Shown here in pieces: positions 972 to 13,924 of a stretch of 13,924 nt of DNA. Under the pieces are notes generated by a model that was given only the letters and a program-made list of their open reading frames with translations, did no database searches and was not told where the DNA came from. A program made the position numbers and the translations under genes. The stretch's first letter is position 1. Each line of letters starts with the position of its first letter. Origin of the DNA: an uncultured Mucispirillum sp. (GTDB taxonomy: Bacteria > Chrysiogenota > Deferribacteres > Deferribacterales > Mucispirillaceae); NCBI GenBank assembly GCA_945929285.1, contig CAMEOC010000002.1, forward strand, positions 1-13,924, in the 5' to 3' direction.

Positions 972-2249
972 ATGTATAATATTATAAAAGACCTTTTCCC
1001 TATTACCCGCTCACTTTCTGGTAATGGAAACAGGCAGACATTAAACTATTTAAAAAAAAATTACCTTGATGAATTAAAAATACATGAATATTCCATTGCT
1101 GACAATAAAAGCACCTATGACTGGGAAACACCTTATGAATGGAATATTAGTGATGCTTATATTTTAGATGAAAATGGCTGCCGTATAATAGATTTTAAAA
1201 ATAATAACCTGCATATTTTAGGTTATTCTGAAAGTATAGATGTAACTATACCTTTTTCTGAGCTTGATAACCACTTATATTCTCTTGAAGATGATATAGA
1301 TGCCATTCCATATGTTACATCATATTATAAAAAACGCTGGGGCTTTTGCCTAACCCACAGGCAGCGGGAAAAATTAAGAAAAAACCCTGAAAAATTATAC
1401 CATGTGGTTATAAAATCTAACTTTAATGAAAATGGCTCTATTACTTACGGTGAGCTTATTATTAATGGATATAGTGATGAAGAAGTTTTAATATCAACAT
1501 ATATTTGCCACCCATCTATGGCTAATGATAATCTTTCAGGGGTTGCTGTGGCTACAGAAATTGCAAAATATATATATGCCTTACCTGAAAGAAAATATAC
1601 ATACCGCATTGTATTTATACCTGAAACAATTGGAGCATTAATCTATTTAAGAGAAAATATAACCCACCTGCAAAAATATGTAAAAGCTGGCTTTGTGCTT
1701 TCATGTATTGGGGATAATGGTGATTATTCCTGCGTGCATAGCCCATATAATAATACATATACTGATAAAATAGTTACCCATGTTTTAAAACATATTACAG
1801 ATAACCCAAAAGAATATTCATTTTTAGAAAGAGGAAGTGATGAAAGGCAATTTTGTGCCCCAAATGTAAACCTGCCAGTATGCACATTAAGCCGCACTAA
1901 GTTTGGTAAATTTAAGCAGTATCATACATCTAATGATAACCTTGATTTTGTTTCAGAAGAAGGTTTAAAAGGTGGCTTTGAATATGTAAAAACATGTATT
2001 GATATATTAGAAAATAATAATATATATAAAATAAAAACAGTTGGTGAGCCTCAGCTGGGAAAATATGGTTTATACCCTACCATAAGCCAAAAAGGTAGTG
2101 CCGATTATACCAGAAACTTAACAAATATAATAGCATACTTAAATGGTGAAAATACAATACTTGATATTGCAGAAATATTAAATGTGCCCTTTAGCAGTGT
2201 GCTTGAGATTATTAAGAAATTAAAAGAAAAAGAATTGGTTACACCATAA
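972..2249 (+). CDS. DUF4910 / M28-like aminopeptidase-fold protein with C-terminal winged helix
   Basis: A 425-residue protein of the COG4310 type: an M28-like aminopeptidase fold (DUF4910) interrupted by a small inserted domain (DUF2172-like, about residues 50-130), followed by a C-terminal winged-helix domain at about 365-425. Likely metal-site residues remain: H180 and D186 in CHPSMANDNLSG, E218 in PETIGAL, D290 and H318 in YHTSNDNLDF. The family is common in surface-polysaccharide and sugar-modification loci, but its reaction is not established, so peptidase, amidase or deacylase activity are all possible. The start is ATG 972, seven bases after GAGG (961-964). It is convergent with the cassette and overlaps the last gene of that run by 11 bases. 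Its own promoter is not clear in the AT-rich upstream DNA. Confidence 0.85.
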   Translation: MYNIIKDLFPITRSLSGNGNRQTLNYLKKNYLDELKIHEYSIADNKSTYDWETPYEWNISDAYILDENGCRIIDFKNNNLHILGYSESIDVTIPFSELDNHLYSLEDDIDAIPYVTSYYKKRWGFCLTHRQREKLRKNPEKLYHVVIKSNFNENGSITYGELIINGYSDEEVLISTYICHPSMANDNLSGVAVATEIAKYIYALPERKYTYRIVFIPETIGALIYLRENITHLQKYVKAGFVLSCIGDNGDYSCVHSPYNNTYTDKIVTHVLKHITDNPKEYSFLERGSDERQFCAPNVNLPVCTLSRTKFGKFKQYHTSNDNLDFVSEEGLKGGFEYVKTCIDILENNNIYKIKTVGEPQLGKYGLYPTISQKGSADYTRNLTNIIAYLNGENTILDIAEILNVPFSSVLEIIKKLKEKELVTP

Positions 2250-4026
2250 ACTTGTTCTTTAAATAATCATATGTAGCTTTTGGCACAAGTTTTTTTAATG
2301 AATCATAGTCTTTATTATCAATACATTTTCTAACAGTTGTTGCACTTACTGCCATGCCGTCTATTTCATACCGCTGAATTACTTTAAATTCAATATTATA
2401 TTGTGGTAATATTTCCTGCATGGTATTATTATATTGCCTTGTAATATTACAAAATGGCTCATTACCTGCAAAACGAACTGAAATATTTAATGCTGGTGCA
2501 ATTTTTTCTGCAAATATAGATATATCTAATGATGTATCAACTGCTACTTCTTTTTGAAAATCTTTTGTAAAATATTCTGGAAAAGTTATAGTTGATATAA
2601 TATATTTACCACTTTTTAATACTTTTATATTTTTATAATCTTTTAAATTATCTGTAATAATATTATATCTATCATCTAGTGAGAATATAGATTTATTTTC
2701 TTCCACTAAAAATATATATAAATAGTCCACTTCTTTTAAAGCCTGCTCTATTAAATACTTATGACCGTAAGTAAATGGGTTTACATTCATCACTATACTG
2801 CCACATTTTTTATTATCACTATTTTTAAACTTTTCAGTAGATAAGTATTTTAAATATTCTTCTAAACCTTTATTATGTTCTTGAGATAATTTTGAGGTAA
2901 TATTTTTTACAGCACTATTTTTTTTCTTACCTGTTTTATTTATTTCAATTTTACTTAAATAGTTATTATATAAATAATCTGCAATTAGTTTATAACCCCT
3001 GTGGTTTACATGGCTGGCATCAAAAAATATTGGTTTATTTTCATTTCTATTATCATAAACTTTCATCATATCACAATAAGTTATACCTATTTCATTAAGC
3101 TTTTTAGATATAAAATCAAATACTTTCTTTTTACTGCTTAATGGTAAATATGGGTATAAAGCAAATATAATTATAATATCATTATCTTCATAATTATAAA
3201 ATGATGGGCGGTTAAAACATCTATCTTCTCCACCTGCTCCAAGCATTCCATAATTTATTACTCTACTTTCTTTAAAATAATTTTGTATATGGCTTGCTAT
3301 TGTCCTGCTATCATCTGCACCTGTTCCAAAAGCGTAGCAATCCCCAAAAATATATATTTTATTATAATATTCTTCTGCTTGATTTGGTGTATACCTTTCA
3401 CTGTTAATAACATTTAGATAATCACTCTTATAATCAATATGAGTTGCTTCTCCACTTTCTTTTACAATGATTGCAGGTGTTTGAAAAAGCTGCTTTATGT
3501 ATTCATCACTAAATTCAGCTATATCATTATATAAGTATTTAAAAAAAGAAGGGTTATTATCAAAATTCTCTCTATTAAATTTTATAAGTGATACCATAGC
3601 TTCGTAAATATTTTTACTTTTATATTCCACATCTATTTTAGGAACTCGTACTATAAATTTTTTAGTGTTTTTATTTAAGTTTGATATTTTTCTTACATCA
3701 ATAAATAAGAAATATGTTAGCTCGACTATTTCCCTTACAGAATAAATATCTGCATTTTTTAGCATTTGTTTTTCTAGGTCATAATAATTTTGAAAATCTG
3801 CAATGATAATACAATTATAGTTTTGCAGCATATTTTTATCTAATATAATATCTACTTTACTAAATTTAGTTTCTATATCACTATAGAGCCTTTCTGCTAA
3901 ATCGTTTTTTCCAAAGATTGCAATATTTTTATAATTTAATTCTTTTAATATATATGCTGTTGATATATTTTTTTCTTTTAAAATCAACCATTTATTAAGT
4001 ATATTTGACACCACATCTGTTACCAT
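2239..4026 (-). CDS. Three-domain protein: Rossmann-like, SGNH-hydrolase-like and CitC-type nucleotidylyltransferase
   Basis: A 595-residue cytosolic-looking protein with no signal peptide. Residues about 33-100 resemble a Rossmann-type segment (IAIFGKNDLAERLY). Residues 223-357 resemble an SGNH/GDSL hydrolase with block I GDCYAFG (228-234) and block V DASH (336-339); the usual nucleophilic serine is cysteine 230. Residues about 408-595 match the catalytic half of citrate lyase ligase (CitC): NPFTYGHKYL at 416-425 with its TxGH nucleotide signature, and SATTVR at 561-566. CitC adenylates acetate and acylates a carrier-protein thiol, so a carrier-linked role here is attractive but unproven. 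It starts three bases after the acyltransferase gene, with AGGG inside that gene as ribosome site, and is the last gene of the operon. No other citrate lyase gene is nearby. The domain calls are fairly safe; the function is unknown. Confidence 0.75.
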   Translation of the reverse strand: MVTDVVSNILNKWLILKEKNISTAYILKELNYKNIAIFGKNDLAERLYSDIETKFSKVDIILDKNMLQNYNCIIIADFQNYYDLEKQMLKNADIYSVREIVELTYFLFIDVRKISNLNKNTKKFIVRVPKIDVEYKSKNIYEAMVSLIKFNRENFDNNPSFFKYLYNDIAEFSDEYIKQLFQTPAIIVKESGEATHIDYKSDYLNVINSERYTPNQAEEYYNKIYIFGDCYAFGTGADDSRTIASHIQNYFKESRVINYGMLGAGGEDRCFNRPSFYNYEDNDIIIIFALYPYLPLSSKKKVFDFISKKLNEIGITYCDMMKVYDNRNENKPIFFDASHVNHRGYKLIADYLYNNYLSKIEINKTGKKKNSAVKNITSKLSQEHNKGLEEYLKYLSTEKFKNSDNKKCGSIVMNVNPFTYGHKYLIEQALKEVDYLYIFLVEENKSIFSLDDRYNIITDNLKDYKNIKVLKSGKYIISTITFPEYFTKDFQKEVAVDTSLDISIFAEKIAPALNISVRFAGNEPFCNITRQYNNTMQEILPQYNIEFKVIQRYEIDGMAVSATTVRKCIDNKDYDSLKKLVPKATYDYLKNKFMV

Positions 4027-4029
4027 TTT

Positions 4030-4815
4030 CTAATCCCTGCCATCATAATAAACAAGTTTTCTGCTTTTATTATTTGCTATATCATTTTTTGCGTAGTTAC
4101 AATAGTCCTCTACATGTGTAAAATAGAATGGAATATTATTTATATATTCTACTTTTACTATACCTTTATCTATTAATTCCTGTCTAAATGGTTCTGTTTT
4201 TACTGTTGTATTTAATTCTAACTTTCTTACAAACATTGAATATTCTTTTATACTGCTTTGTCCAAATTCATCTATATATTCAGATTTAAACATTTTAATA
4301 TACCTATATGGTATAATATCTTTAAAAAAATGTTCTTCAATAAAATGGTGTGCAGTATATGTGTTTGTGCCTATACCAATTTGAGCTGCATTATTATAGT
4401 ATAAATAATGAAATACAGATTCATCACCAAAAGAATCTATATAATCATTTGCTACTAGCTTTTCTTTATCTTTTCCATATACTGCATACGAATAAATAGG
4501 ATGCTTTGTTCTTTGAAAGTCTTTATCTTTTAAAGCATAATCACCTAGTATTCCTGCTTGTGATTTAGAATTATTATAATCAAATGGTAAGCCCTTACAA
4601 AAATCCCAATTAAATGTAGGTATAATAATGGTATTATTCTTGTTAAAAATATTTTTTAGTTCATTAATAAATTCTACTAAATCAAAAGTTCTACCTGCTT
4701 TTTTTTCTATATATATAACAGGTGACATATTTGATATTATATATATAGCCTCACCTTCTTTTATGGGCAACTGCTTTAAATAATCTAAATATAAATAAAA
4801 TATTTTACTTGTCAT
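4030..4815 (-). CDS. AAC(3)-fold (Antibiotic_NAT family) N-acyltransferase
   Basis: A 261-residue protein of the aminoglycoside 3-N-acetyltransferase family. Family landmarks are present in order: IIIPTFNW at 63-70, SQAGILGDY at 85-93, RTKHPIYSYAV at 102-112, then GIGTNTYTAHHFIEE at 147-161, which carries the histidine/glutamate motif of the active site. In polysaccharide and antibiotic pathways, members acylate amino groups of nucleotide sugars or related amines, using acyl-CoA or acyl-ACP. Its place 41 bases after an ACP gene and near two AMP-forming ligases suggests the donor is the acyl-ACP made by this operon. A resistance role is unlikely from context. ATG 4815 follows an AGG about eight bases upstream. 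The acceptor is unknown. A relic of a second copy lies at 9202-9255. Confidence 0.85.
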   Translation of the reverse strand: MTSKIFYLYLDYLKQLPIKEGEAIYIISNMSPVIYIEKKAGRTFDLVEFINELKNIFNKNNTIIIPTFNWDFCKGLPFDYNNSKSQAGILGDYALKDKDFQRTKHPIYSYAVYGKDKEKLVANDYIDSFGDESVFHYLYYNNAAQIGIGTNTYTAHHFIEEHFFKDIIPYRYIKMFKSEYIDEFGQSSIKEYSMFVRKLELNTTVKTEPFRQELIDKGIVKVEYINNIPFYFTHVEDYCNYAKNDIANNKSRKLVYYDGRD

Positions 4816-4835
4816 TTAGTCTACCTAAAATAATA

Positions 4836-4866
4836 ATTGATTGATTAATTAATTAATTATTTATTT
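4836..4866. repeat. Imperfect tetranucleotide tract at the ACP stop codon
   Basis: About seven consecutive 4-base units drift from TTGA to TTAA to TTAT, covering the ACP stop codon and the gap before the acyltransferase gene. Gain or loss of a unit would change the ACP C-terminus or the intergenic spacing. The tract is short and impure, so active phase variation is not claimed. Confidence 0.5.
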
Positions 4867-5072
4867 CTTTCTATCATATCATTAATAGTTTTTAATGTTC
4901 TAAAATTTTCCATATCAATGTCTTCCATAGCAATATTAATATTATAATGCTCTTCAATTTCTGCTATTAAACCTGCTATATCAAAAGAATCAAGAGAATA
5001 CTCACTTACTATATCATTACTATTTTTAATATCTGCTCCTGGTCTTATTTTTTCAAAAATTTCTTCTATCAT
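4857..5072 (-). CDS. Acyl carrier protein
   Basis: A 71-residue acidic ACP-type protein. The phosphopantetheine site is DSFD at 28-31 with S29 as the modified serine, followed by an amphipathic helix (IAGLIAEIEEHYNINIAMEDI), as in ACP helix II. It is slightly short compared with the usual 75-80 residues. ATG 5072 follows GGGAG about nine bases upstream. It lies 21 bases downstream of AMP-forming ligase 1 and 41 bases upstream of the N-acyltransferase, which fits a carrier that accepts the acid activated by the ligase and hands it to the transferase. It is probably a dedicated carrier rather than the fatty-acid ACP, which normally sits with fab genes. No phosphopantetheinyl transferase is visible in the window. 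A decayed duplicate is at about 9305-9474. Confidence 0.88.
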   Translation of the reverse strand: MIEEIFEKIRPGADIKNSNDIVSEYSLDSFDIAGLIAEIEEHYNINIAMEDIDMENFRTLKTINDMIERNK

Positions 5073-5092
5073 TTTTATTCTCCCTTATATTT

Positions 5093-5195
5093 ATTATAGC
5101 ATTTCTTTTAGTTTTCTTCTTAATATTTTTCCATTAAATGTTTTAGGTATTTCATCTATAACACGAATTTCTTTTGGACATTTATATGGTTCTAA
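5093..5195. repeat. Near-identical 3' end shared by the two ligase genes (copy A)
   Basis: Bases 5093-5156 are identical to 9493-9556 (64 of 64), and through 5195 only about four positions differ from the mate at 9493-9595. Elsewhere the two ligases are only about half identical as proteins. The tract covers the last 33 or so codons, including the catalytic-lysine motif, and the stop. It points to gene conversion or a recombination endpoint. Confidence 0.85.
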
Positions 5196-6530
5196 GTTTG
5201 ACGATAAAAATTTATACAATTCATTTTCATTATATTTATTATTGATTATTATAAATAATACAGGTACTTGACCTGCTATTTTATCTAACTTACCAACACA
5301 TGCACATTCTTTTATTCCACTATATTTTAATGCAATATCTTCTACCTCTTCAGGTGCAACTTTATAGCCACCAACTGTAATTATATCATCATCTCTACCT
5401 ACAAGATAATAAAACCCTTCTTCATCTTTATATCCTATATCTTTTGATATATACATGTATGGATTAAATTTTATATTACTTTCCTCTTTCACATATCCTT
5501 TCATAATGGATTTTCCAACAACTGCAATATAACCTTTATTATCTATACCACATTCAATAATTTCATTGCCATTTTGATCTAAAATTAAAATTTTTGTATG
5601 TCTTGTCGGTTTACCTATACATCCAGTTTTTGTTCTATATTTAGCCATATCCAAGCATAATGTAGTTGCTGCTTCTGATGAGCCATATGTATTATAAAGA
5701 TGGGTGTTTGGTAATATTTGAATTAATTTTTCAACAATATTATCTTTTAAAGGAGAACTTGAAAACTCAATATAATTAAGCTGTGCTGCGTATTCACCAA
5801 GATAATCTATTCCATACTTTAAAATGATATTCATAGCAGAAGGATTGGTAACAATTGAAGTAATATTATATAATTTTAAATACGTAAAAAAATTTGAAAG
5901 AGGCATTAGTTTATATAAAATAATAGTATGGTAGCCTAATACTAAATTTGCATATAAACGCCTTAAAGCAAAAGAATGATGCAGTGGAGTTGTTATTAAT
6001 AAATTATTTTCTTTATCTATCTCTAAAATACCTATTATATTTTCTATAGTAGCAAAATGTGTTCTATGGGTATGGATAATACCTTCAGGGCTACCTGTGG
6101 TTCCAGTAGTATATAACACATCAGCTTCCATATTCTCTTCTGGAAATTCGTGTTCTTTCCTATTTGTATTCAAAAGTAATGTTTCAACTCCATGTAGTGA
6201 AATATCATATTCATTGTCTAAAAATGACTTTTTTGCATTAATTTCCTTTGTAATTTTTTCAATATCATCTAAAGTAGCATTTTCTCCCACAGGGCACACA
6301 GCTAAACCATACAGCAATAACCCTAACTGCATTATTACAAACCCAATATTTTGTTTATTCTGTATAATAACTCTATCACCCTTTATTAAACCATATCGTT
6401 CAATATAAGTTGCAAATAATTCTAAATTTTCCCATAACTGTTTATAGGTTAATGTGCCATCATTTGCTGTTATAGCTTTTTCATTTGGTCTATTTTTATA
6501 GTTATTATAAATAGATTCAAGGATAGTCAT
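5094..6530 (-). CDS. AMP-forming acyl ligase 1 (ANL superfamily)
   Basis: A 478-residue adenylate-forming enzyme that activates a carboxylic acid with ATP and transfers the acyl group to a pantetheine thiol, either CoA or, as context suggests, the adjacent ACP. Motifs in order: phosphate loop YTTGTTGSPEG 140-150, PLHHSFALRR 182-191, NTYGSSEA 280-287, D364 in YISKDIGY, hinge region GRDDDIITVGGYKVAPEE 378-395, and PKTFNGKILRRKL 462-474 with catalytic K468. At 478 residues it is compact for the family. Its ATG shares one base with the ATPase stop (TAATG), and GAGGAG provides the ribosome site, so it is translationally coupled to the transporter. The specific acid cannot be read from sequence. 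A paralogue lies at 9494-10939, with an almost identical 3' end. Confidence 0.9.
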   Translation of the reverse strand: MTILESIYNNYKNRPNEKAITANDGTLTYKQLWENLELFATYIERYGLIKGDRVIIQNKQNIGFVIMQLGLLLYGLAVCPVGENATLDDIEKITKEINAKKSFLDNEYDISLHGVETLLLNTNRKEHEFPEENMEADVLYTTGTTGSPEGIIHTHRTHFATIENIIGILEIDKENNLLITTPLHHSFALRRLYANLVLGYHTIILYKLMPLSNFFTYLKLYNITSIVTNPSAMNIILKYGIDYLGEYAAQLNYIEFSSSPLKDNIVEKLIQILPNTHLYNTYGSSEAATTLCLDMAKYRTKTGCIGKPTRHTKILILDQNGNEIIECGIDNKGYIAVVGKSIMKGYVKEESNIKFNPYMYISKDIGYKDEEGFYYLVGRDDDIITVGGYKVAPEEVEDIALKYSGIKECACVGKLDKIAGQVPVLFIIINNKYNENELYKFLSSNLEPYKCPKEIRVIDEIPKTFNGKILRRKLKEML

Positions 6531-7309
6531 TATAAATCTCCTCTTATCATTTTATTTAATAATGACCAACACTCATTAAACCCTTTATGCTCCGGAGATT
6601 TTGCAATACCCTTTTCCCCTTCTACATTGTTATCAAAATATTGTATATCTGTAGGTGATTTAATAATTAAAAACTTTGTTCCCATTGATATTGCTTCATG
6701 TATGTTATGTGTTACAAATAAAATAGTTACTTTATTATCTACTTTATTCCAAATAGTTAATAATTCCTTACGTAGAATATTACGAGTATCAGCATCTAAA
6801 CTTGCAAAAGGTTCATCCATTAATATAACTGATGGCTCTAAAGCTAATGACCGTGCAATAGCAACCCTTTGTTTCATACCTCCTGAAAGCTGATGAGGAT
6901 AATAATCTAAAAAATCTGATAAGCCTACTAGGTTAAGATAATATTTAACATGGTCCTTAAGCTGGCTTTCTTGTATTTCGGGATGATTAACTTTTATGGG
7001 GTAATATACATTTTGATAAACTGTTTTCCAAGGAAAAATCTGATTAAAATCTTGAAATACCATTGCTGCATGAATATCTGGATGCATTACTTTTGTATTA
7101 TTAATAAAAATCTCTCCTTGCTGAATACTTTCAAATCCTCCAATACTCCTTAATAAAGTACTTTTTCCACAACCTGATTTTCCTAATATAGAAACAAACT
7201 CACCTTTATTAATTTCAAGATTAAGATTACTAATTATTTGTAATTTATTTTCCCCAGTATCATATAGTTTTGATACATTATGCAATTTTATGCATACATT
7301 AGAGTTCAT
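6530..7309 (-). CDS. ABC transporter ATP-binding protein (TauB/SsuB-type)
   Basis: A 259-residue ABC ATPase with complete motifs: Walker A GKSGCGKST at 43-51, Q-loop Q86, signature LSGGMKQR at 141-148, Walker B VILMDEP at 161-167 and switch H201. Length and motif spacing fit the nitrate/sulfonate/taurine group, whose members energise uptake of small organic anions with a periplasmic binding protein and one permease. It acts at the cytosolic face of the inner membrane. The start overlaps the permease end by 11 bases, and the stop overlaps ligase 1 by one. This is the only intact ATPase of the cassette; its duplicate at 10939-11438 is a pseudogene, so both binding proteins would have to use this one. 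Confidence 0.93.
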   Translation of the reverse strand: MNSNVCIKLHNVSKLYDTGENKLQIISNLNLEINKGEFVSILGKSGCGKSTLLRSIGGFESIQQGEIFINNTKVMHPDIHAAMVFQDFNQIFPWKTVYQNVYYPIKVNHPEIQESQLKDHVKYYLNLVGLSDFLDYYPHQLSGGMKQRVAIARSLALEPSVILMDEPFASLDADTRNILRKELLTIWNKVDNKVTILFVTHNIHEAISMGTKFLIIKSPTDIQYFDNNVEGEKGIAKSPEHKGFNECWSLLNKMIRGDL

Positions 7310-8093
7310 TACTTATCATACCCCATTTTCTTATTGTTTTATTTTCAACTGTTTTAAAAAATAAATCTTCTATTAATATGCCAATAATCATTAAAACTAG
7401 TAAAGTAGCTAACATTCCTGGCATATCTAAGTAATTACGCTTTAAATATATATCCCAGCCTAGGCCACCTATTGCACCTGTTGTGCCAAAAACCATTTCA
7501 GCTGCAATTAAAGAACGCCATGCTCTTGCCCAGCCATTTTTTATACCCATTAATATGTTAGGAAAGGCTGCAGGCACATAAATATCCTTTATCATTTGCA
7601 ATTTTGAAAGCCCTATATTTTGCCCCACTTCTCTATATATTTTTGGAATAGAATCAAAACCTGCCATAACACTTAAAAGCGTTGGCCATACAATGGAGTG
7701 AACCATAATGAATATAATAGCAGCTTTACCAATGCCAAACCATAATATGGCAATAGGTAAAAGTGCAATACCTGGCAGTGGATCTAATACAGAAATTAAA
7801 GTTCGCATTAAGTCTTTAAAAATATGACTAATATTTGAAAAAACTACAAGCCCAGCAGTAATCAAAAAAGAAACAAGCAACCCAATTAATATAAGGTATA
7901 AAGTATAACCTGTTTTTATAAATAGACTTCCATCATATATTTCTAAATACAGTTTTTCCAAAACAGATAATGGTGATGGAAATAATATTGCAGAAAATAT
8001 ATGCAACTTATATATTAACTGCCATATGAGGAAAAAAAATGTTATATATAAAAATCTTCTAAAAACTATATTATCTAATAACTTTTTATACAT
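7299..8093 (-). CDS. ABC transporter permease (TauC/SsuC-type)
   Basis: A 264-residue inner-membrane protein with about six hydrophobic segments; the clear ones are near 12-28, 62-85, 105-135, 195-212 and 225-243. The EAA loop that docks to the ATPase lies at about 154-180 (EVGQNIGLSKLQMIKDIYVP). Arrangement and size match the BPD_transp_1 permeases of the taurine/sulfonate/nitrate group, which function as homodimers. It begins eight bases after binding protein 1 and overlaps the ATPase start by 11 bases. It is the only intact permease in the window; a C-terminal relic of a second copy is at 11431-11484. The substrate is unknown. Coupling to an acyl ligase suggests a carboxylate rather than a sulfonate (inference). 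Confidence 0.92.
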   Translation of the reverse strand: MYKKLLDNIVFRRFLYITFFFLIWQLIYKLHIFSAILFPSPLSVLEKLYLEIYDGSLFIKTGYTLYLILIGLLVSFLITAGLVVFSNISHIFKDLMRTLISVLDPLPGIALLPIAILWFGIGKAAIIFIMVHSIVWPTLLSVMAGFDSIPKIYREVGQNIGLSKLQMIKDIYVPAAFPNILMGIKNGWARAWRSLIAAEMVFGTTGAIGGLGWDIYLKRNYLDMPGMLATLLVLMIIGILIEDLFFKTVENKTIRKWGMISNEL

Positions 8094-8101
8094 TGTACAA
8101 A

Positions 8102-9127
8102 CTATTCCCCAAGCGCTTTTTCTACTAGAGATTTATCACCCATTCTTTTACCAATTATTCCAAGCATATTATCCCACACCATATTTTCTAAAACAGGTTT
8201 ATTTTTAATATATCCTTCTTGATACATGTAATTTGCTATGGTCATAAGCCCGTAAATATTGCTTGTATAATTTGTACCATCTCTAGATAAATATTGCTTT
8301 ACTTGTTCAACTGATAATTTTTCTACATTTGCAATAATTTGCAGTGCTCTGGCATCTCGCTTATTTATAAGAGCAATAGCTTCATTTAAGGCTGCTAATA
8401 CACCAGTATATATTGCTGGCTGTTCATATAATTTTTTTGATACAACACAAACTATACTCACATCACCAATAGTATCACCGCCAGATGCAAGTTTTTTAAA
8501 CCCTGCACTTTCTTCTAAAGCAGAATATGGCATAATAGCAGCATGGGCAGTTATAGAGCTATTTAATAAACTTGTATAAGAATCTGGATTTGACATTACT
8601 ACAACATTTTTATCAAAAGCATGAGCATCTCCTAAATACTTTTTTGCCATTAATGAAATTTGAATATGATTATTTGAACCAATACCTGGTACACCTATTT
8701 TATCTTTTGGTGTAAAATCATTAAAAGATTTTATTTTATCACTATTTACCATTAATTCAATTGGTATAATACTTAACCCCATTGCTATTTTAAAGTCAGC
8801 ACCCTTATCAATAGCTATAACTAATGGAGGAATACCCATCATACCAATATCTAATTGTCCCCCTATTAGTGCCTCACTAATAGCAGAACCTCCGCCTAGC
8901 GATAACCACTCTACCTCTATACCTGGCAAATATTTATCTATTAAATCTAACTGTTCTGCCACATAAATTGGAGCATAAGCTGTTGAAAACTGCTTAACAA
9001 TACGAATTTTAACACCTGCATAAGGCAGTTCTTCTTTAATAGTATTTTCAGATGCTTTTATGGAAAAAATTATATAACCAAGTAACACTAAAATGACACA
9101 AAAAAGTAAAATCATTAGTTTTTTCAT
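8102..9127 (-). CDS. Periplasmic solute-binding protein 1 (NMT1/TauA/SsuA-type)
   Basis: A 341-residue binding protein of the NMT1/THI5-like group. The N-terminus has lysines followed by a hydrophobic stretch at about 5-22. There is no convincing lipobox, so it is either cleaved after SIKA or kept as a membrane anchor. The typical ligand-lobe segment GGGSAISEALIGGQLDIG lies at about 78-95, followed by GIPPLVIAIDKGADFKIA. I chose ATG 9127 over the longer frame (to 9157) because GAGGT at 9139-9135 lies seven bases before it and MKKLMILL is a proper signal start. It presumably delivers the acid to the permease eight bases downstream. Binding protein 2 (11505-12539) is roughly half identical along its length. 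Confidence 0.88.
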   Translation of the reverse strand: MKKLMILLFCVILVLLGYIIFSIKASENTIKEELPYAGVKIRIVKQFSTAYAPIYVAEQLDLIDKYLPGIEVEWLSLGGGSAISEALIGGQLDIGMMGIPPLVIAIDKGADFKIAMGLSIIPIELMVNSDKIKSFNDFTPKDKIGVPGIGSNNHIQISLMAKKYLGDAHAFDKNVVVMSNPDSYTSLLNSSITAHAAIMPYSALEESAGFKKLASGGDTIGDVSIVCVVSKKLYEQPAIYTGVLAALNEAIALINKRDARALQIIANVEKLSVEQVKQYLSRDGTNYTSNIYGLMTIANYMYQEGYIKNKPVLENMVWDNMLGIIGKRMGDKSLVEKALGE

Positions 9128-9492: not shown

Positions 9493-9595
9493 ATTATAGC
9501 ATTTCTTTTAGTTTTCTTCTTAATATTTTTCCATTAAATGTTTTAGGTATTTCATCAATAATACGAATTTCCTTTGGACATTTATATGGTTCTAA
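9493..9595. repeat. Near-identical 3' end shared by the two ligase genes (copy B)
   Basis: Mate of 5093-5195. The first 64 bases are identical and about four of the remaining bases differ. It covers the C-terminal catalytic-lysine motif and stop of ligase 2, and similarity drops sharply beyond it in both directions. Confidence 0.85.
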
Positions 9596-10939
9596 TTTAT
9601 CTTTTATAAATTTGTATAATTCTTTACTATCATATTCACTGTTGATAGTAATAAAAAGCACAGGAACCTGACCTGCCAGTTCATTATCTTTACCTATACA
9701 GGCACAATCTGTTATTCCTTTACATTTTTTTATAACATCTTCTATCTCATCAGGTGCAACTTTTAAGCCCCCAATTGGTATAATATCTGACTGCCTTCCC
9801 AATAAATAATAAAAATTCTTACTATCTTTATACACAATATCCTGTGTTATATAATATCCTTTAGAAAGTACTTTATGACTGTTTATTTTATTATTTAAGT
9901 AACCTTTCATTATTATAGGACCTTTCACTGCTAAAAAGCCTGCATTATCCTTACCAAAACCGTCTATAATATTATAATTATCATCTAATATATAAATATC
10001 AGAATTAATATTTGCATATCCTATACAACCTGTCTGTTCAAGATATTGTGTATTATTATAACCTGTTAGACAACCTGCTTCTGTTGAGCCATATATATTA
10101 TACATTTTTGTATTTGGCAGCATGAAAATTGCTTCTTTTAGTATATCTATCTTTAATGGAGAGCTGGAAAATTCTATATAATCCAATTGATTTTTATACT
10201 CTGCTAAAAGATTTTTACTACCTTTTAATATAATTGCTAAAGCTGAAGGATTCATTGCAATAGATGTTACACGATATTTTTTTAACATATTAAAAAAATT
10301 CTCTAAAGGAATAATATTTTCTATAATAACAATTGAACTTCCATGGACAATATTCGCATAAAAACGCCTTAAAGCAAAAGAATGGTTTAATGGAGCAGCT
10401 ATTAAGGCAACATTTTTCTCAGGCATATTTATAGTGCTAAATATATTTTCAACAGTAGCATAGTGGCTTCTATTTGTATGAATAATACCTTCCGGTGTTC
10501 CAGTAGTACCTGTTGTATATAAAATATCTGATATATCATCTAATGAAGGAAATTCATAGTGCTGAATATTTATTCCATTTAAAAGCTCTAAAACTCCAGC
10601 TAAAGTATATGAAGATAATGTATCTCTTGAAAAAACTTTTTTTGCATTTGTTGCTTTAACAATTTCTAAAAGATTATCGCTTATTATATTTTTATCAACA
10701 GGGACAACTACACCACCAGATAATAATGTACCAAAAATAACAATAGAAAATGCAATATTTTGAACACCTTGGATAATAACAGCATCCCCATTACATATTC
10801 CTTCTTTTTTTAAGTATGAAGCAAATCTATTGGCATATTCCCATAATTCCTTATAAGTAATATCTCCATCAGTTGCTGCAATAGCCAGCCTGTCAGGATA
10901 TTTACAACTATTTTCATACAATGCTTGAATAATTGTCAT
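9494..10939 (-). CDS. AMP-forming acyl ligase 2 (ANL superfamily)
   Basis: A 481-residue paralogue of ligase 1 with all catalytic motifs kept: YTTGTTGTPEG at 141-151, a PLNHSFALRR segment, NIYGSTEA, a YITQDIVY aspartate, GRQSDIIPIGGLKVAP in the hinge region, and PKTFNGKILRRKL with the catalytic lysine near the C-terminus. It should adenylate an acid and load it on CoA or ACP. It differs from ligase 1 at several positions around the acid pocket and hinge (for example GGL against GGY), so a different acid is possible. Its ATG still shares one base with the stop of the upstream ATPase pseudogene (TAATG), as in the intact copy. The ACP behind it is a relic, so it would have to use the ACP at 4857-5072. 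An open frame amid dead neighbours suggests selection. Confidence 0.88.
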   Translation of the reverse strand: MTIIQALYENSCKYPDRLAIAATDGDITYKELWEYANRFASYLKKEGICNGDAVIIQGVQNIAFSIVIFGTLLSGGVVVPVDKNIISDNLLEIVKATNAKKVFSRDTLSSYTLAGVLELLNGINIQHYEFPSLDDISDILYTTGTTGTPEGIIHTNRSHYATVENIFSTINMPEKNVALIAAPLNHSFALRRFYANIVHGSSIVIIENIIPLENFFNMLKKYRVTSIAMNPSALAIILKGSKNLLAEYKNQLDYIEFSSSPLKIDILKEAIFMLPNTKMYNIYGSTEAGCLTGYNNTQYLEQTGCIGYANINSDIYILDDNYNIIDGFGKDNAGFLAVKGPIIMKGYLNNKINSHKVLSKGYYITQDIVYKDSKNFYYLLGRQSDIIPIGGLKVAPDEIEDVIKKCKGITDCACIGKDNELAGQVPVLFITINSEYDSKELYKFIKDKLEPYKCPKEIRIIDEIPKTFNGKILRRKLKEML

Positions 10940-11438
10940 TATTGCTCATTCCTAATCATATTATTGAGCTTTGACCAGCACTCATCAAAACCTTTAACTT
11001 CTTGGTTCTTCATTTTACCAGCCTCTCCTTCAACCATATTATCAAATACTTGATATACTTTTTCATATCTAATATAACAAATTTACTTGCAATAGAAATA
11101 GCTTCTAAAATACCATGTGTAACAAATAAAATTGTAAGTTTACCATATGCCTTATACCATATATCAAGCACCTCTTTATGTAGAGATGTTCTAGTATCTG
11201 CATCTAAACTTACAATTTAAAAAACCATAACACTATGATTATATTTATTGCTATATACCTGCTCAAAACTTCCTATACTCTTTAAAAAATTCTTTTTTTC
11301 ATACCTATAAATAGCGAACATAATTAAAAAGTTACATAGTACATATAAACATTTTGGATAATATATCCAATTTCAAATCATTAGTTTAGATTGATTTAAA
11401 AAGATTTTAACCGAAATCGCGGTATTTGTATTATTCAT
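10939..11438 (-). pseudogene. Decayed ABC ATPase (second copy), core deleted and frameshifted
   Basis: This is the second copy of the ATPase at 6530-7309. Minus-strand ATG 11438 begins MNNTN, then KIFLNQSKL aligns with IKLHNVSKL before a stop. Degraded Walker A follows (KKNFLKSIGSFE against KSTLLRSIGGFE), then HSVMVF and a stop against HAAMVFQ. About 80 codons (Q-loop, signature, Walker B) are missing. Similarity resumes near 11210 with SLDADTRTSLHKEVLDIW and TILFVTHGILEAIS. One A appears lost from the A-run at 11059-11063, and the other frame continues as VYQVFDNMVEGEAGK through KGFDECWSKLNNMIRNEQ to a TAA overlapping ligase 2. It cannot be functional as an ATPase. Confidence 0.92.
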
Positions 11439-11504: not shown

Positions 11505-12539
11505 TTACTTTCCTAATATTTCTTCCACAGGGGATATGCCACCTGTTCTTTTACCTATTAATGCTCTTGCATTTTCCCATACAAGTTTTTCTAATTCTGG
11601 TTTGTTTTTTATATACCCCACTTCATGCATATAGTTGGCGATACCCATTAAACCGTATATATTTGCAGTATAGTTAGTACCTGGCCAGTCTAAAAATGCT
11701 TTTGCATCTTCTATTGATATTTTCTCAACTTCTGCAATAATCTCTAAAACTTTAGGGTCCTGCTTATTAAGTAAATCCATTGCCTCATATAAAGCACCTA
11801 TAAGCCCTGCATAAACTGCTGGATTACTATGAAATTTAGATGTAGTAACACAAACAATACTAGCATCTCCATAAGCTTCTTTACCTGTTAAGATACTACG
11901 GAAACCTTGCCTTGCCTCTAACTCTAAAAATGGCATAGTCGTAAAATGACCTACAATTTCTGTGCCACTAACTAAGCTTGAATAAGCATCTGGATTTGCC
12001 ATTGCCACCATATTTGCATCAAAATCACGAGCTTTATTAAGTTTTTCTTTAGCAGCTATGGAAAGTAATATATGTTGAGTTGAACCTATTCCAGGTATTG
12101 CTATCTTATCCTGTGGTTTAAAATCTGCAATTGATTGAAGTCTTTCTTCTTTTACCATTAAATCAAATGGTGGAACACAAACTCCTGAAGCAATTTTTAA
12201 ATCTGCCCCTTTATCAATTGCTATTACAGCAGGTGGCATTCCCATAAAACCCACATCAAGATGACCGCTTATTAATGCTTCAGTAATTGCAGCACCACCA
12301 CCAAAAGAACTCCATTCTATTTTTGCACCAGGTAAATATTTTTCTAATAAATTCATTTTTTCAACAATATAACCCGCTGCATACTGCATACCATATTGCT
12401 TTGCAAGACGCACAGTTACACCTGAAAAAGGTTTATCATTAACAGCTGTTTCTAAATTTGCCGAATTTTTTCCAAACATAATTGTGCCTAATAAAATAAC
12501 ACAAACCAAACCAAGAACAATAATAATTACATTTTTCAT
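11505..12539 (-). CDS. Periplasmic solute-binding protein 2 (NMT1/TauA/SsuA-type)
   Basis: A 344-residue paralogue of binding protein 1, open throughout. The N-terminus MKNVIIIVLGLVCVILLGTI is a hydrophobic signal or anchor without a convincing lipobox. The ligand-lobe segment GGGAAITEALISGHLDVG lies at about 80-97, followed by GMPPAVIAIDKGADLKIA. C-terminal parts such as GTNTYANIYG-like and NYMHEVGYIKNKPELE also match the paralogue. Identity is roughly one half by eye, so ligand preference may differ. It starts at ATG 12539, with AGGGGA about seven bases upstream. Its own permease and ATPase are dead; being intact, it probably feeds the transporter at 6530-8093. It is first in the minus-strand run, behind an extended -10 promoter. 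Confidence 0.9.
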   Translation of the reverse strand: MKNVIIIVLGLVCVILLGTIMFGKNSANLETAVNDKPFSGVTVRLAKQYGMQYAAGYIVEKMNLLEKYLPGAKIEWSSFGGGAAITEALISGHLDVGFMGMPPAVIAIDKGADLKIASGVCVPPFDLMVKEERLQSIADFKPQDKIAIPGIGSTQHILLSIAAKEKLNKARDFDANMVAMANPDAYSSLVSGTEIVGHFTTMPFLELEARQGFRSILTGKEAYGDASIVCVTTSKFHSNPAVYAGLIGALYEAMDLLNKQDPKVLEIIAEVEKISIEDAKAFLDWPGTNYTANIYGLMGIANYMHEVGYIKNKPELEKLVWENARALIGKRTGGISPVEEILGK

Positions 12540-12722: not shown

Positions 12723-13924
12723 ATGTTATCTGTAATTATTTTAGCAGCAGGCAAAGGCACAAGAATGAAATCTGAAACTCCAAAAGTGCTTTTTCATGCT
12801 GCTGGTAAGCCTATGATAGATTATACCATTGAATTAAGTAAAACCTTAAACCCAAATAAAATTATAGTTGTTACAGGCAATATGTCTGAAACTGTGCAGG
12901 AATATTTAAAAGAATCTTCTGTGGAGTTTGCTCTGCAAAAAGAACAGCATGGCACAGCAGATGCTGTTATGGCTGCCATTGATTATATAGATGATAATGG
13001 CAAAGTACTTATTTTATGCGGCGATATGCCTTTAATAAAAGAAGAAACCATAAAAAGTTTTATAGATAGCGTTACTGAAGATGTGGCATTTATTAGTGTT
13101 AAAATGAAACAGCCTAAAGGCTATGGTAGAATTGTGCGTTCATCTGATAATAAAGTTATTAAAATTGTGGAAGAAAAAGATGCCAATGAATATGAAAAGC
13201 GTATAAATGAAGTAAATACTGGTGTTTATTTATGTGATGGGAAAGAGCTTAAAAAACGCCTTGCCTTAATTGATAATAATAATGCTCAAAACGAATACTA
13301 TTTAACAGATATTATCCGCGGTGGTGCAGAAGCTTTTATTGCAGATGATGAAAAAGAGTTTATGGGCGTAAATGATAGAATACAGCTTTGCACTGCTTCT
13401 AAAATATTATACAGGCAGCGGGCAGAAAAATATATGGCAGACGGGGTGACAATTATTGACCCAGATTCCTGCTATATAGACTGTGGTGTAACCATAGGTA
13501 AAGACAGCCTTATATACCCAAATGTATTTTTAGAAAAAGGCACAAAGGTTAGTAAAAATGTTATAATCCGTTCTGGCTGCCGTTTATATAAAGCAATTAT
13601 TGAAGAAAATGTGGAAATAAAAGATAATACATTAATAGAAGATTCTTATATAGGCAGTGGCTCATCTGTTGGCCCAATGGCTCATCTTCGCCCAGGCTCA
13701 CACCTTGAAAAAGATAATAAAGTAGGCAACTTTGTGGAGCTTAAGAAAGCTAAAATGGGTGAAGGCTCAAAAGCAAGCCACCTTACATATTTAGGTGATG
13801 CCACTTTAGGAAAAAATGTAAATATTGGCTGCGGCACAATTACATGTAATTATGACGGCTATAATAAATACCAGACTATAATAGATGATAATGTATTTAT
13901 TGGCAGTGATACTCAGATGGTTGC
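12723..13924 (+). CDS. glmU: Bifunctional UDP-GlcNAc pyrophosphorylase / glucosamine-1-P N-acetyltransferase (cut at window edge)
   Basis: GlmU makes UDP-N-acetylglucosamine in the cytosol in two steps: acetylation of glucosamine-1-phosphate by the C-terminal domain and uridylyl transfer by the N-terminal domain. The fragment has 400 full codons. Uridylyltransferase motifs: LAAGKGTRMKS at 7-17, then QKEQHGTADAV and LCGDMPL. The left-handed beta-helix part includes RPGSHLEKDNKVGNFVEL and KASHLTYLGDATLG, with the conserved lysines and histidine, and IGCGTITCNYDG. The last 50 or so residues are beyond the window. The start is ATG 12723, six bases after GAGG (12713-12716). It is a core gene divergent from the cassette and marks the right border. 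Its product feeds peptidoglycan, lipopolysaccharide and amino-sugar pathways. Confidence 0.97.
   Translation, partial: MLSVIILAAGKGTRMKSETPKVLFHAAGKPMIDYTIELSKTLNPNKIIVVTGNMSETVQEYLKESSVEFALQKEQHGTADAVMAAIDYIDDNGKVLILCGDMPLIKEETIKSFIDSVTEDVAFISVKMKQPKGYGRIVRSSDNKVIKIVEEKDANEYEKRINEVNTGVYLCDGKELKKRLALIDNNNAQNEYYLTDIIRGGAEAFIADDEKEFMGVNDRIQLCTASKILYRQRAEKYMADGVTIIDPDSCYIDCGVTIGKDSLIYPNVFLEKGTKVSKNVIIRSGCRLYKAIIEENVEIKDNTLIEDSYIGSGSSVGPMAHLRPGSHLEKDNKVGNFVELKKAKMGEGSKASHLTYLGDATLGKNVNIGCGTITCNYDGYNKYQTIIDDNVFIGSDTQMV

Follow-up and report, generated by a model that had tools for sequence, protein, structure and literature searches.

A predicted flagellin-glycan acylation island with its own ABC importer in an uncultured Mucispirillum

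The DNA analysed here (the window) is a whole contig (C2) of 13,924 bases from an uncultured Mucispirillum sp., whose genome is 57% complete and lies in 280 contigs. By sequence and Pfam matches, the window spans the flagellin-glmU interval of a Deferribacterales genome (Table 1). It carries a minus-strand operon in the order TauA1-TauC-TauB-ligase 1-ACP-NAT-CitC-domain protein, which encodes an ABC importer, an AMP-forming (ANL) acid ligase, an acyl carrier protein (ACP), an N-acyltransferase (NAT) and a protein with a CitC domain. The genes are separated by 8 (TauA1-TauC), -11 (TauC-TauB), -1 (TauB-ligase), 21 (ligase-ACP), 41 (ACP-NAT) and 3 bases (NAT-CitC protein). An earlier reading of the same DNA from its letters (the sequence-only reading) had described these genes as one tight operon. 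The description is borne out by open frames where it had put them, Pfam scores above cut-off and gaps of -11 to 41 bases, except that the CitC-domain gene, which had been counted within positions 4030-9127, lies at 2239-4026. The operon is convergent with a DUF4910 gene, beyond which flagellin is cut at the contig end, and the glycan-modification genes are contiguous with flagellin. Upstream of the operon lies a second, partly decayed copy consisting of TauA2, a TauB remnant and ligase 2, which was absent from the sequence-only reading.

Table 1. Features of the 13,924-base window, with positions counted from its first base.
Feature	Position	Strand	Evidence
Flagellin, N-terminal part, cut by contig end	2..448	-	PF00669 148.9 bits
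DUF4910/DUF2172/HTH_47 protein (Cj1295-like)	972..2249	+	PF16254 302.9 bits, cut-off 26.6
595-aa protein, C-terminal CitC (citrate lyase ligase-type) nucleotidyltransferase domain, N-terminal type uncertain	2239..4026	-	PF08218 222 bits
AAC(3)-fold N-acyltransferase (NAT)	4030..4815	-	PF02522 69.5 bits, cut-off 25
Acyl carrier protein (ACP), 71 aa, DS attachment motif	4857..5072	-	PF00550 30.2 bits
AMP-forming (ANL) acid ligase 1	5094..6530	-	PF00501 162.3 bits, PF13193 63.5 bits
ABC importer ATPase (TauB/SsuB-like)	6530..7309	-	PF00005 113.6 bits
ABC importer permease (TauC/SsuC-like)	7299..8093	-	PF00528 74.2 bits
Substrate-binding protein 1 (TauA1; TauA/SsuA superfamily, NMT1-type)	8102..9127	-	PF13379 33.4 bits
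ANL ligase 2	9494..10939	-	53% identical to ligase 1
Decayed TauB remnant, residues 170-258, two frames	10945..11210	-	tblastn 2.6e-22
Substrate-binding protein 2 (TauA2)	11505..12539	-	50% identical to protein 1; close relative in G008
glmU, cut by contig end, edge of island	12723..13922	+	Sequence; GlmU matches at same place in 4 relatives

The NAT is of the AAC(3) type (Antibiotic_NAT) by its Pfam score, its fold and a conserved His. Its structure model, of low confidence (pLDDT 59) and used for the fold alone, matches FrbF, YokD and AAC(3) with a best Foldseek E of 2.6e-9. The H..E motif is kept, and the His is present in 20 of the 21 aligned NATs, that of the window included. A second NAT of the same genome (L004:306-1136, contig C84), which lies beside DUF4910 and ACP genes, lacks the His common to the other 20 (TVYIE). 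Gene context argues against aminoglycoside drugs as the NAT substrate. The attachment motif DS is found in all 17 aligned ACPs. The DUF4910 protein passes its Pfam cut-off, matches 3k9t with a phmmer E of 1.7e-93 and aligns with it at the metal-site stretches (HPSM-ND...YHTS), where the H, D, H zinc ligands of 3k9t (PMC4000134) are present, as in Cj1295-type proteins.

The sequence-only reading had named the last protein of the operon SGNH/CitC. Its CitC domain is firm, although against the full-length citrate lyase ligase model TIGR00124 the protein scores 212.5, below the cut-off of 262.1, and covers model positions 119-329 only. The SGNH label is weak, as the Lipase_GDSL match reaches only E 0.19 and the nucleophile position is held by Cys in the window (GDC) and in a relative from genome G032 (GRC), with Ser in a Vibrio relative (GSS). 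A divergent SGNH domain is thus weakly indicated. The two relatives are L019:9008-10717 (G032; 33% identity over residues 101-593) and L151:2-1348 (Vibrio). The former lies among apparent gmd/fcl-like, glycosyltransferase and flippase-like genes, an apparent O-antigen-type locus.

The importer had been called TauABC-type, which holds at the superfamily level. Its genes score below the NCBIfam cut-off with every taurine, sulfonate and Sao model shown (TIGR01728 74.8 against 163.5, TIGR01729 24.5 against 304.25, TauC 87.6 against 342, SaoA 204.8 against 360). The nearest solved relative of the binding proteins is SsuA 2x26 (36.9 to 59 bits), followed by a chain labelled nitrate transport protein and a taurine-binding protein; a TauA structure model (pLDDT 43) was useless for substrate assignment. 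The window importer thus shares superfamily and gene set with SsuABC and TauABC, but misses the curated models shown by wide margins and is linked to glycan acylation genes. The TauA clade is rare in a set of 384 genomes, being found in the window's genome (G000) and in G008, with a weaker match in G024. The G024 match is a distant TauA-like gene at a contig end (L109:4478-7562), which follows genes that look serC-like and serA-like from sequence.

Conserved co-occurrence in other genomes, on which the sequence-only reading had staked its proposal, was found in part. Three family genomes (the window's, G008 and G011) have importer genes next to genes for an ACP, a NAT or a ligase, in differing order. 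G008 has KASIII-ACP-TauA-TauC-TauB, interrupted by the end of the contig, in a stretch where DUF4910, NAT and a further ACP gene are also present; the G008 TauA is closest to TauA2 (83% DNA identity), and the G008 ACP aligns to that of the window at 68%. In G011 a NAT is accompanied by the C-terminal half of a TauB (L051:10436-10900) and a ligase 45% identical to ligase 1, and no TauA or TauC was seen in the stretch read. Linkage of the importer to acylation genes is therefore kept in these three genomes despite the reshuffled order, in one of them with a TauB fragment only. The exact TauABC-ligase-ACP-NAT set was seen in no other genome; one ligase-alignment scan of genome contigs gave only G011 and a distant Sulfitobacter ligase.

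The three importer-linked ligases (ligase 1, ligase 2 and that of G011) form one supported group (98/99). In NRPS/DltA-type (nonribosomal peptide synthetase) enzymes, the Asp of the FDxS core motif holds the alpha-amino group of the substrate. All three ligases carry Ser at this position, within PL[HN]HS[FY]ALRR, unlike alpha-amino-acid-adenylating enzymes; the 15 other ligases compared carry Asp (10), Ser (3) or Met (2). The replacement suggests that the ligase substrate, presumably the imported acid, is probably not an alpha-amino acid, and the Arg pair of the motif hints at a second anionic group on it. A sulfonate-type building block is thinkable by analogy with the SsuA- and taurine-type nearest solved relatives and with the taurine-bearing flagellin glycan of C. 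difficile.

The island itself is shared more widely than the importer. Of the 9 other genomes of the genus, 7 were matched by a NAT profile, which matched 24 of 384 genomes overall at E <= 1e-15. The loci of these seven genomes were read, two stretches each for four of them. Flagellin lies within the locus in five (G001, G003, G005, G007, G008) and glmU in four (G001, G003, G004, G005), both being present in three; the flagellin-glmU interval of G001, G003 and G005 holds differing genes, so it is an island of variable content. By phmmer, NAT and DUF4910 are fused into one protein of about 700 residues in six of the seven; Pfam confirms the fusion for L088 and for a like protein, L092, of G011. 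These two fusions, L088:9861-11951 and L092:8338-10434, stand in flagellin or pse/maf loci. Around NAT and DUF4910 in the relatives, and in second loci of the C84 type, there are ACPs, ligases, KASIII, ketoreductases, methyltransferases and a formyltransferase-GNAT protein; FkbH, ACP, NAT and DUF4910 lie together in G019, and contig C84 of the window's own genome bears a second DUF4910-NAT-ACP set. These neighbours suggest that the island type would provide an ACP-based supply of a custom acyl group.

Sugar synthesis and transfer genes accompany the island. NeuB and Maf-type (PF01973) matches are present in 15 of 15 family genomes, weaker second NeuB-like matches (about 30-46 bits) being left out of the NeuB count. 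The window's own genome has nonulosonic acid synthesis together with a Maf-type transferase on contig C20, in the order PseC (454.6 bits, cut-off 423.5), a cytidylyltransferase, a formyltransferase-like gene, PseI (473.1, cut-off 340.25) and a Maf-type gene; PseB on this contig is truncated (189.8 of 407.75 bits). The formyltransferase-like gene (L146:6540-7106) between the cytidylyltransferase and PseI may give N-formyl rather than N-acetyl pseudaminic acid. One contig of G011 carries both a Maf-type gene and, about 6 kb away, genes for the NAT-DUF4910 fusion, a ligase, KASIII and a reductase. Outside the family, a Tritonibacter mobilis plasmid has the order pseB-pseC-x-DUF4910-NAT-FlmD-ATP-grasp-oxidoreductase-pseI. 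Its NAT is the best annotated plasmid match (32.5% identity over 57% of the query) and the second-best overall, the best (Sinorhizobium RAC02) being without annotation. The plasmid-match loci read were one of one for the ACP, 3 of 13 for the NAT, one of 82 for the CitC protein and one of 104 for TauA; a NAT search of viral contigs gave no match. The flagellar-glycan target named by the sequence-only reading is thus well supported by the relatives' loci, the NeuB and Maf-type matches, PseC/PseI and the Tritonibacter pse operon.

The importer clade was also found in Bacillota, the phylum of G101, where it occurs with amino-sugar and carboxylate-amine-ligase operons. A TauA profile built from five rows, including one of a glycan-type locus, gave 51 matches in 48 of 398 genomes, and 43 of the 51 loci were read, 40 first and three later (L218-L220). 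In twelve of the first 40, ATP-grasp and GT2 genes precede TauA on its strand, either immediately or separated from it by one or two small frames. A DegT sugar aminotransferase also lies in the stretch in 11 of the 12, and one (L182) shows no TauB. The three later loci carry the ATP-grasp/GT2 set as well, giving 15 of 43. The operon order is aminotransferase-GT2-ATP-grasp-TauACB, and in Acetoanaerobium noterae the aminotransferase exceeds the dTDP-4-amino-4,6-dideoxygalactose transaminase cut-off (468.9 against 375). We take this operon to resemble an Arn-like surface modification set. The DegT aminotransferase-GT2-ATP-grasp-TauACB operons (L174, L177-L182, L184-L186, L188, L189, L218-L220, L152) mostly have PMT-type transferase and rhodanese genes, the rhodanese products often with a signal-like N-terminal stretch. 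Many of the other Bacillota TauABC loci have an MFS gene and a gene for a membrane-like protein of about 150 aa nearby.

A reciprocal search was carried out with an ATP-grasp profile, which gave 23 matches in 22 genomes, 19 of them strong (E <= 3e-127). TauA lies within about 1.3 kb of 15 of these 19, or of 10 of 14 when seeds are removed, as the profile was seeded with six TauA-adjacent loci, five of them among the 15. Two of the other strong matches (G394, G512) have the two genes at the ends of different contigs, and two (G462, G656; L216, L217) show the same operon without TauABC beside it; the four weaker matches have no neighbouring TauA match. This adjacency supports the view that the importer brings in a building block with which amino sugars are acylated. 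In a TauA tree (midpoint root; G024 and L152 on long branches) the window, G008 and G024 are separate from the 21 Bacillota rows. The Bacillota glycan linkage is therefore a recurrence and not an evident recent transfer. Recent transfer of TauABC from Bacillota, also considered, is not supported, because the same tree separates the groups.

From the relatives' NAT-DUF4910/ACP/ligase interval, the PseC, PseI and Maf-type genes and the NAT-DUF4910 pair in a pse operon, the window appears most likely to be an island for the N-acylation of flagellin glycans, of the type represented by Campylobacter Cj1295. We take Cj1295 to be a DUF4910 protein, and Cj1299, Cj1307 and Cj1308 to be ACP and ligase genes. 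The specific proposal, an importer-fed island that puts a new acyl group onto a pseudaminic-acid-type sugar, is given somewhat better than an even chance. The operon, its families, the common interval, the co-occurrence and the pse and Maf-type genes are directly observed, and from them we infer each chemical step and the kind of acid. The ABC importer would take up a small acid, which the ANL ligase would adenylate and load onto the ACP. The DUF4910 enzyme would strip the resident N-acetyl (or formyl) group from the pseudaminic-acid-type sugar, the AAC(3)-fold NAT would then acylate the freed amine from the loaded ACP, and Maf would place the modified sugar on flagellin. Charging or recharging of the ACP thiol may fall to the CitC-domain protein. 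The DUF4910-NAT fusion of the relatives fits such a two-step edit, in which the old acyl group would be taken off by DUF4910 and the new one put on by the NAT.

Several known systems resemble parts of this scheme. In C. jejuni the aminopeptidase-like Cj1295 is required for the 2,3-di-O-methylglyceroyl group at N5 of pseudaminic acid, and its authors' hypothesis is that the C5 acetamido group is cleaved off and substituted (Hitchen 2010, PMC3068675). That locus resembles the window in its DUF4910-type protein, its NAT (Cj1296/7, Table 1 of that paper) and a custom acyl group on the pseudaminic acid amine; it differs in the acyl group, di-O-methylglyceroyl, and in that the available part of the paper describes no importer (PMC3068675). 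Campylobacter is named among the carriers of DUF4910 in the work on CA_C2195 (Das 2014, PMC4000134), where DUF4910 occurs, as here, with an aminosugar N-acetyltransferase, ACP, Maf and NeuB-type genes, and amino-sugar transacylation or deacylation is suggested; unlike the window, that neighbourhood has an ATP-grasp ligase in place of ANL, and its printed Table 2 shows no importer. The flagellin islands of Aeromonas group II and Enterobacteriaceae share the ACP and an AMP-dependent synthetase/CoA ligase with the window and also hold a ketoacyl-ACP reductase, with pse genes in Aeromonas, but have LuxC/LuxE genes and, in the portions available, no AAC(3)/DUF4910 pair is described (PMC7874193, PMC4875605). 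In C. difficile the type B flagellin glycan carries taurinyl-Ala-Gly on Fuc3N, and a local ATP-grasp gene is needed for the terminal moiety; the acylated amino sugar and the ATP-grasp and FdtB-type aminotransferase genes recall the Bacillota TauABC operons, whereas its chemistry is other than ANL/ACP/NAT and no importer is named in the accessible text (PMC5207245, PMC5207246).

The sequence-only reading had known no named system with this gene set. Parts of the set are in print, namely DUF4910 with NAT, ACP and Maf (PMC4000134) and islands with ACP and AMP-dependent synthetase (PMC7874193, PMC4875605), and the available portions of these papers do not mention the importer; the word 'transporter' is absent from the main texts of PMC7874193 and PMC4875605. 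None of the titles and abstract openings that term searches of open-licence PMC texts returned describes an importer in such an island. What looks new is therefore the dedicated importer, the acylation enzymes being of known kind. Surface-glycan acyl groups are usually taken as products of internal metabolism; with a built-in importer, an outside molecule would be written onto the flagellum, and surface identity would be tied to diet, host or neighbours. The island also offers a handle on the role of the DUF4910/Cj1295 protein and on the origin of caps such as taurine on clostridial flagellin.

A wider proposal, tentative and on balance somewhat doubtful, is that one TauABC-like clade feeds surface-glycan acylation in at least two phyla: in gut Deferribacterales through ANL/ACP/AAC(3)-NAT acting on flagellin sugars, and in Bacillota through aminotransferase/GT2/ATP-grasp/PMT-type genes with rhodanese, the cap being scavenged from the surroundings. 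Plausible caps would be sulfonates or other anionic acids present in the gut. If this is true, surface chemistry would depend on host or community, and the Bacillota aminotransferase-GT2-ATP-grasp-TauACB genes are a compact, directly testable set.

Several results weigh against an importer-fed island. Of the 10 genomes of the genus, only 2 have the importer clade, and two others, G002 and G006, gave no NAT match in the profile search. The pse genes lie on a contig other than the window's, in a genome 57% complete. The ligase could charge coenzyme A (CoA), and the part of the CitC-domain protein in acylation, which it may not have, is the weakest element of the scheme. Two canonical M28 peptidase catalytic residues are replaced in DUF4910 according to its structure paper (PMC4000134). 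The seeding of the ATP-grasp profile also counts here, as do the 28 of 40 first-read Bacillota loci without a glycan operon (26 without L175 and L176, which are cut at contig ends), from which it follows that the TauA clade is not always a glycan importer.

These 28 loci also favour the alternative that survives best, that the importer serves ordinary nutrient uptake (of a sulfonate or a vitamin precursor) and is merely sited in the island, while the ligase uses an internally made acid. TauABC plainly adjoins hrcA-grpE-dnaK-dnaJ in two of them (L191 and L197, from sequence), and by length pattern also in L194 and L198; the two Bacillota glycan operons without adjacent TauABC point the same way, and most of the relatives' islands have no such importer. 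The overlapping TauC-TauB-ligase genes, the linkage kept in three family genomes despite changed order, and the adjacency with an ATP-grasp ligase in another phylum (15 of 19, 10 of 14 without seeds) argue otherwise, and ordinary uptake is judged unlikely.

Alternatively, the imported molecule could be a second building block, taurine or another sulfonate, that is joined to the sugar or to an ACP-bound chain and is not the ligase substrate. Two of the three solved relatives are sulfonate- or taurine-binding (one is labelled nitrate transport protein), rhodanese genes occur in 9 of 12 glycan-type TauA loci against 0 of 28 others, a count that depends on the stretches read, which ranged from about 5 to 15 kb, and the taurine-bearing flagellin glycan has ATP-grasp and FdtB-type genes in its locus (PMC5207245, PMC5207246). 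The binding proteins resemble these relatives weakly (59 bits at most), no window enzyme obviously condenses the amine of taurine, and taurine import for the C. difficile glycan is not described in the accessible parts of those papers (PMC5207245, PMC5207246). We consider this improbable.

A low probability is also assigned to a target other than flagellin, namely another surface polysaccharide or lipopolysaccharide sugar. The O-antigen-type setting of the CitC-protein homologue in G032 would agree with it, as would DUF4910 genes found with surface-polysaccharide export genes (PMC4000134) and the legend of one paper, which leaves Cj1296-Cj1310 out of flagellar glycosylation; flagellin adjoins the operon and lies in the loci of five of seven relatives, the NeuB and Maf-type matches extend to all 15 family genomes, and the acylation genes of G011 are close to a Maf-type gene. 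That the ligase makes an acyl-CoA used by the NAT, as AAC(3) uses acetyl-CoA, with the ACP charged by the CitC-domain protein or in a separate route, is likewise improbable: the best ligase model, below its cut-off, is a long-chain acyl-CoA ligase subfamily and the modelled NAT fold matches CoA-bound AAC(3) structures, but the ACP gene is flanked by those of the ligase (21 bases away) and the NAT (41 bases away), and the relatives' NAT loci carry ACPs with KASIII or FkbH genes.

Related gene arrangements occur outside the family. On two rhizobial plasmids an ANL ligase and an AAC(3)-type domain form a single fusion protein, which supports ligase-to-NAT coupling in general. An ACP domain between the two was considered and is not claimed, as an IDSL stretch is visible without a significant match. 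These fusions (L148:3865-6603, L149:3970-6603) lie beside a PhzF gene. In Paenibacillus cellulosilyticus, the order ACP-SDR-NAT-ligase-GNAT-ACP-KASIII (L084:5495-11283) represents a Bacillota version of the custom acyl cassette.

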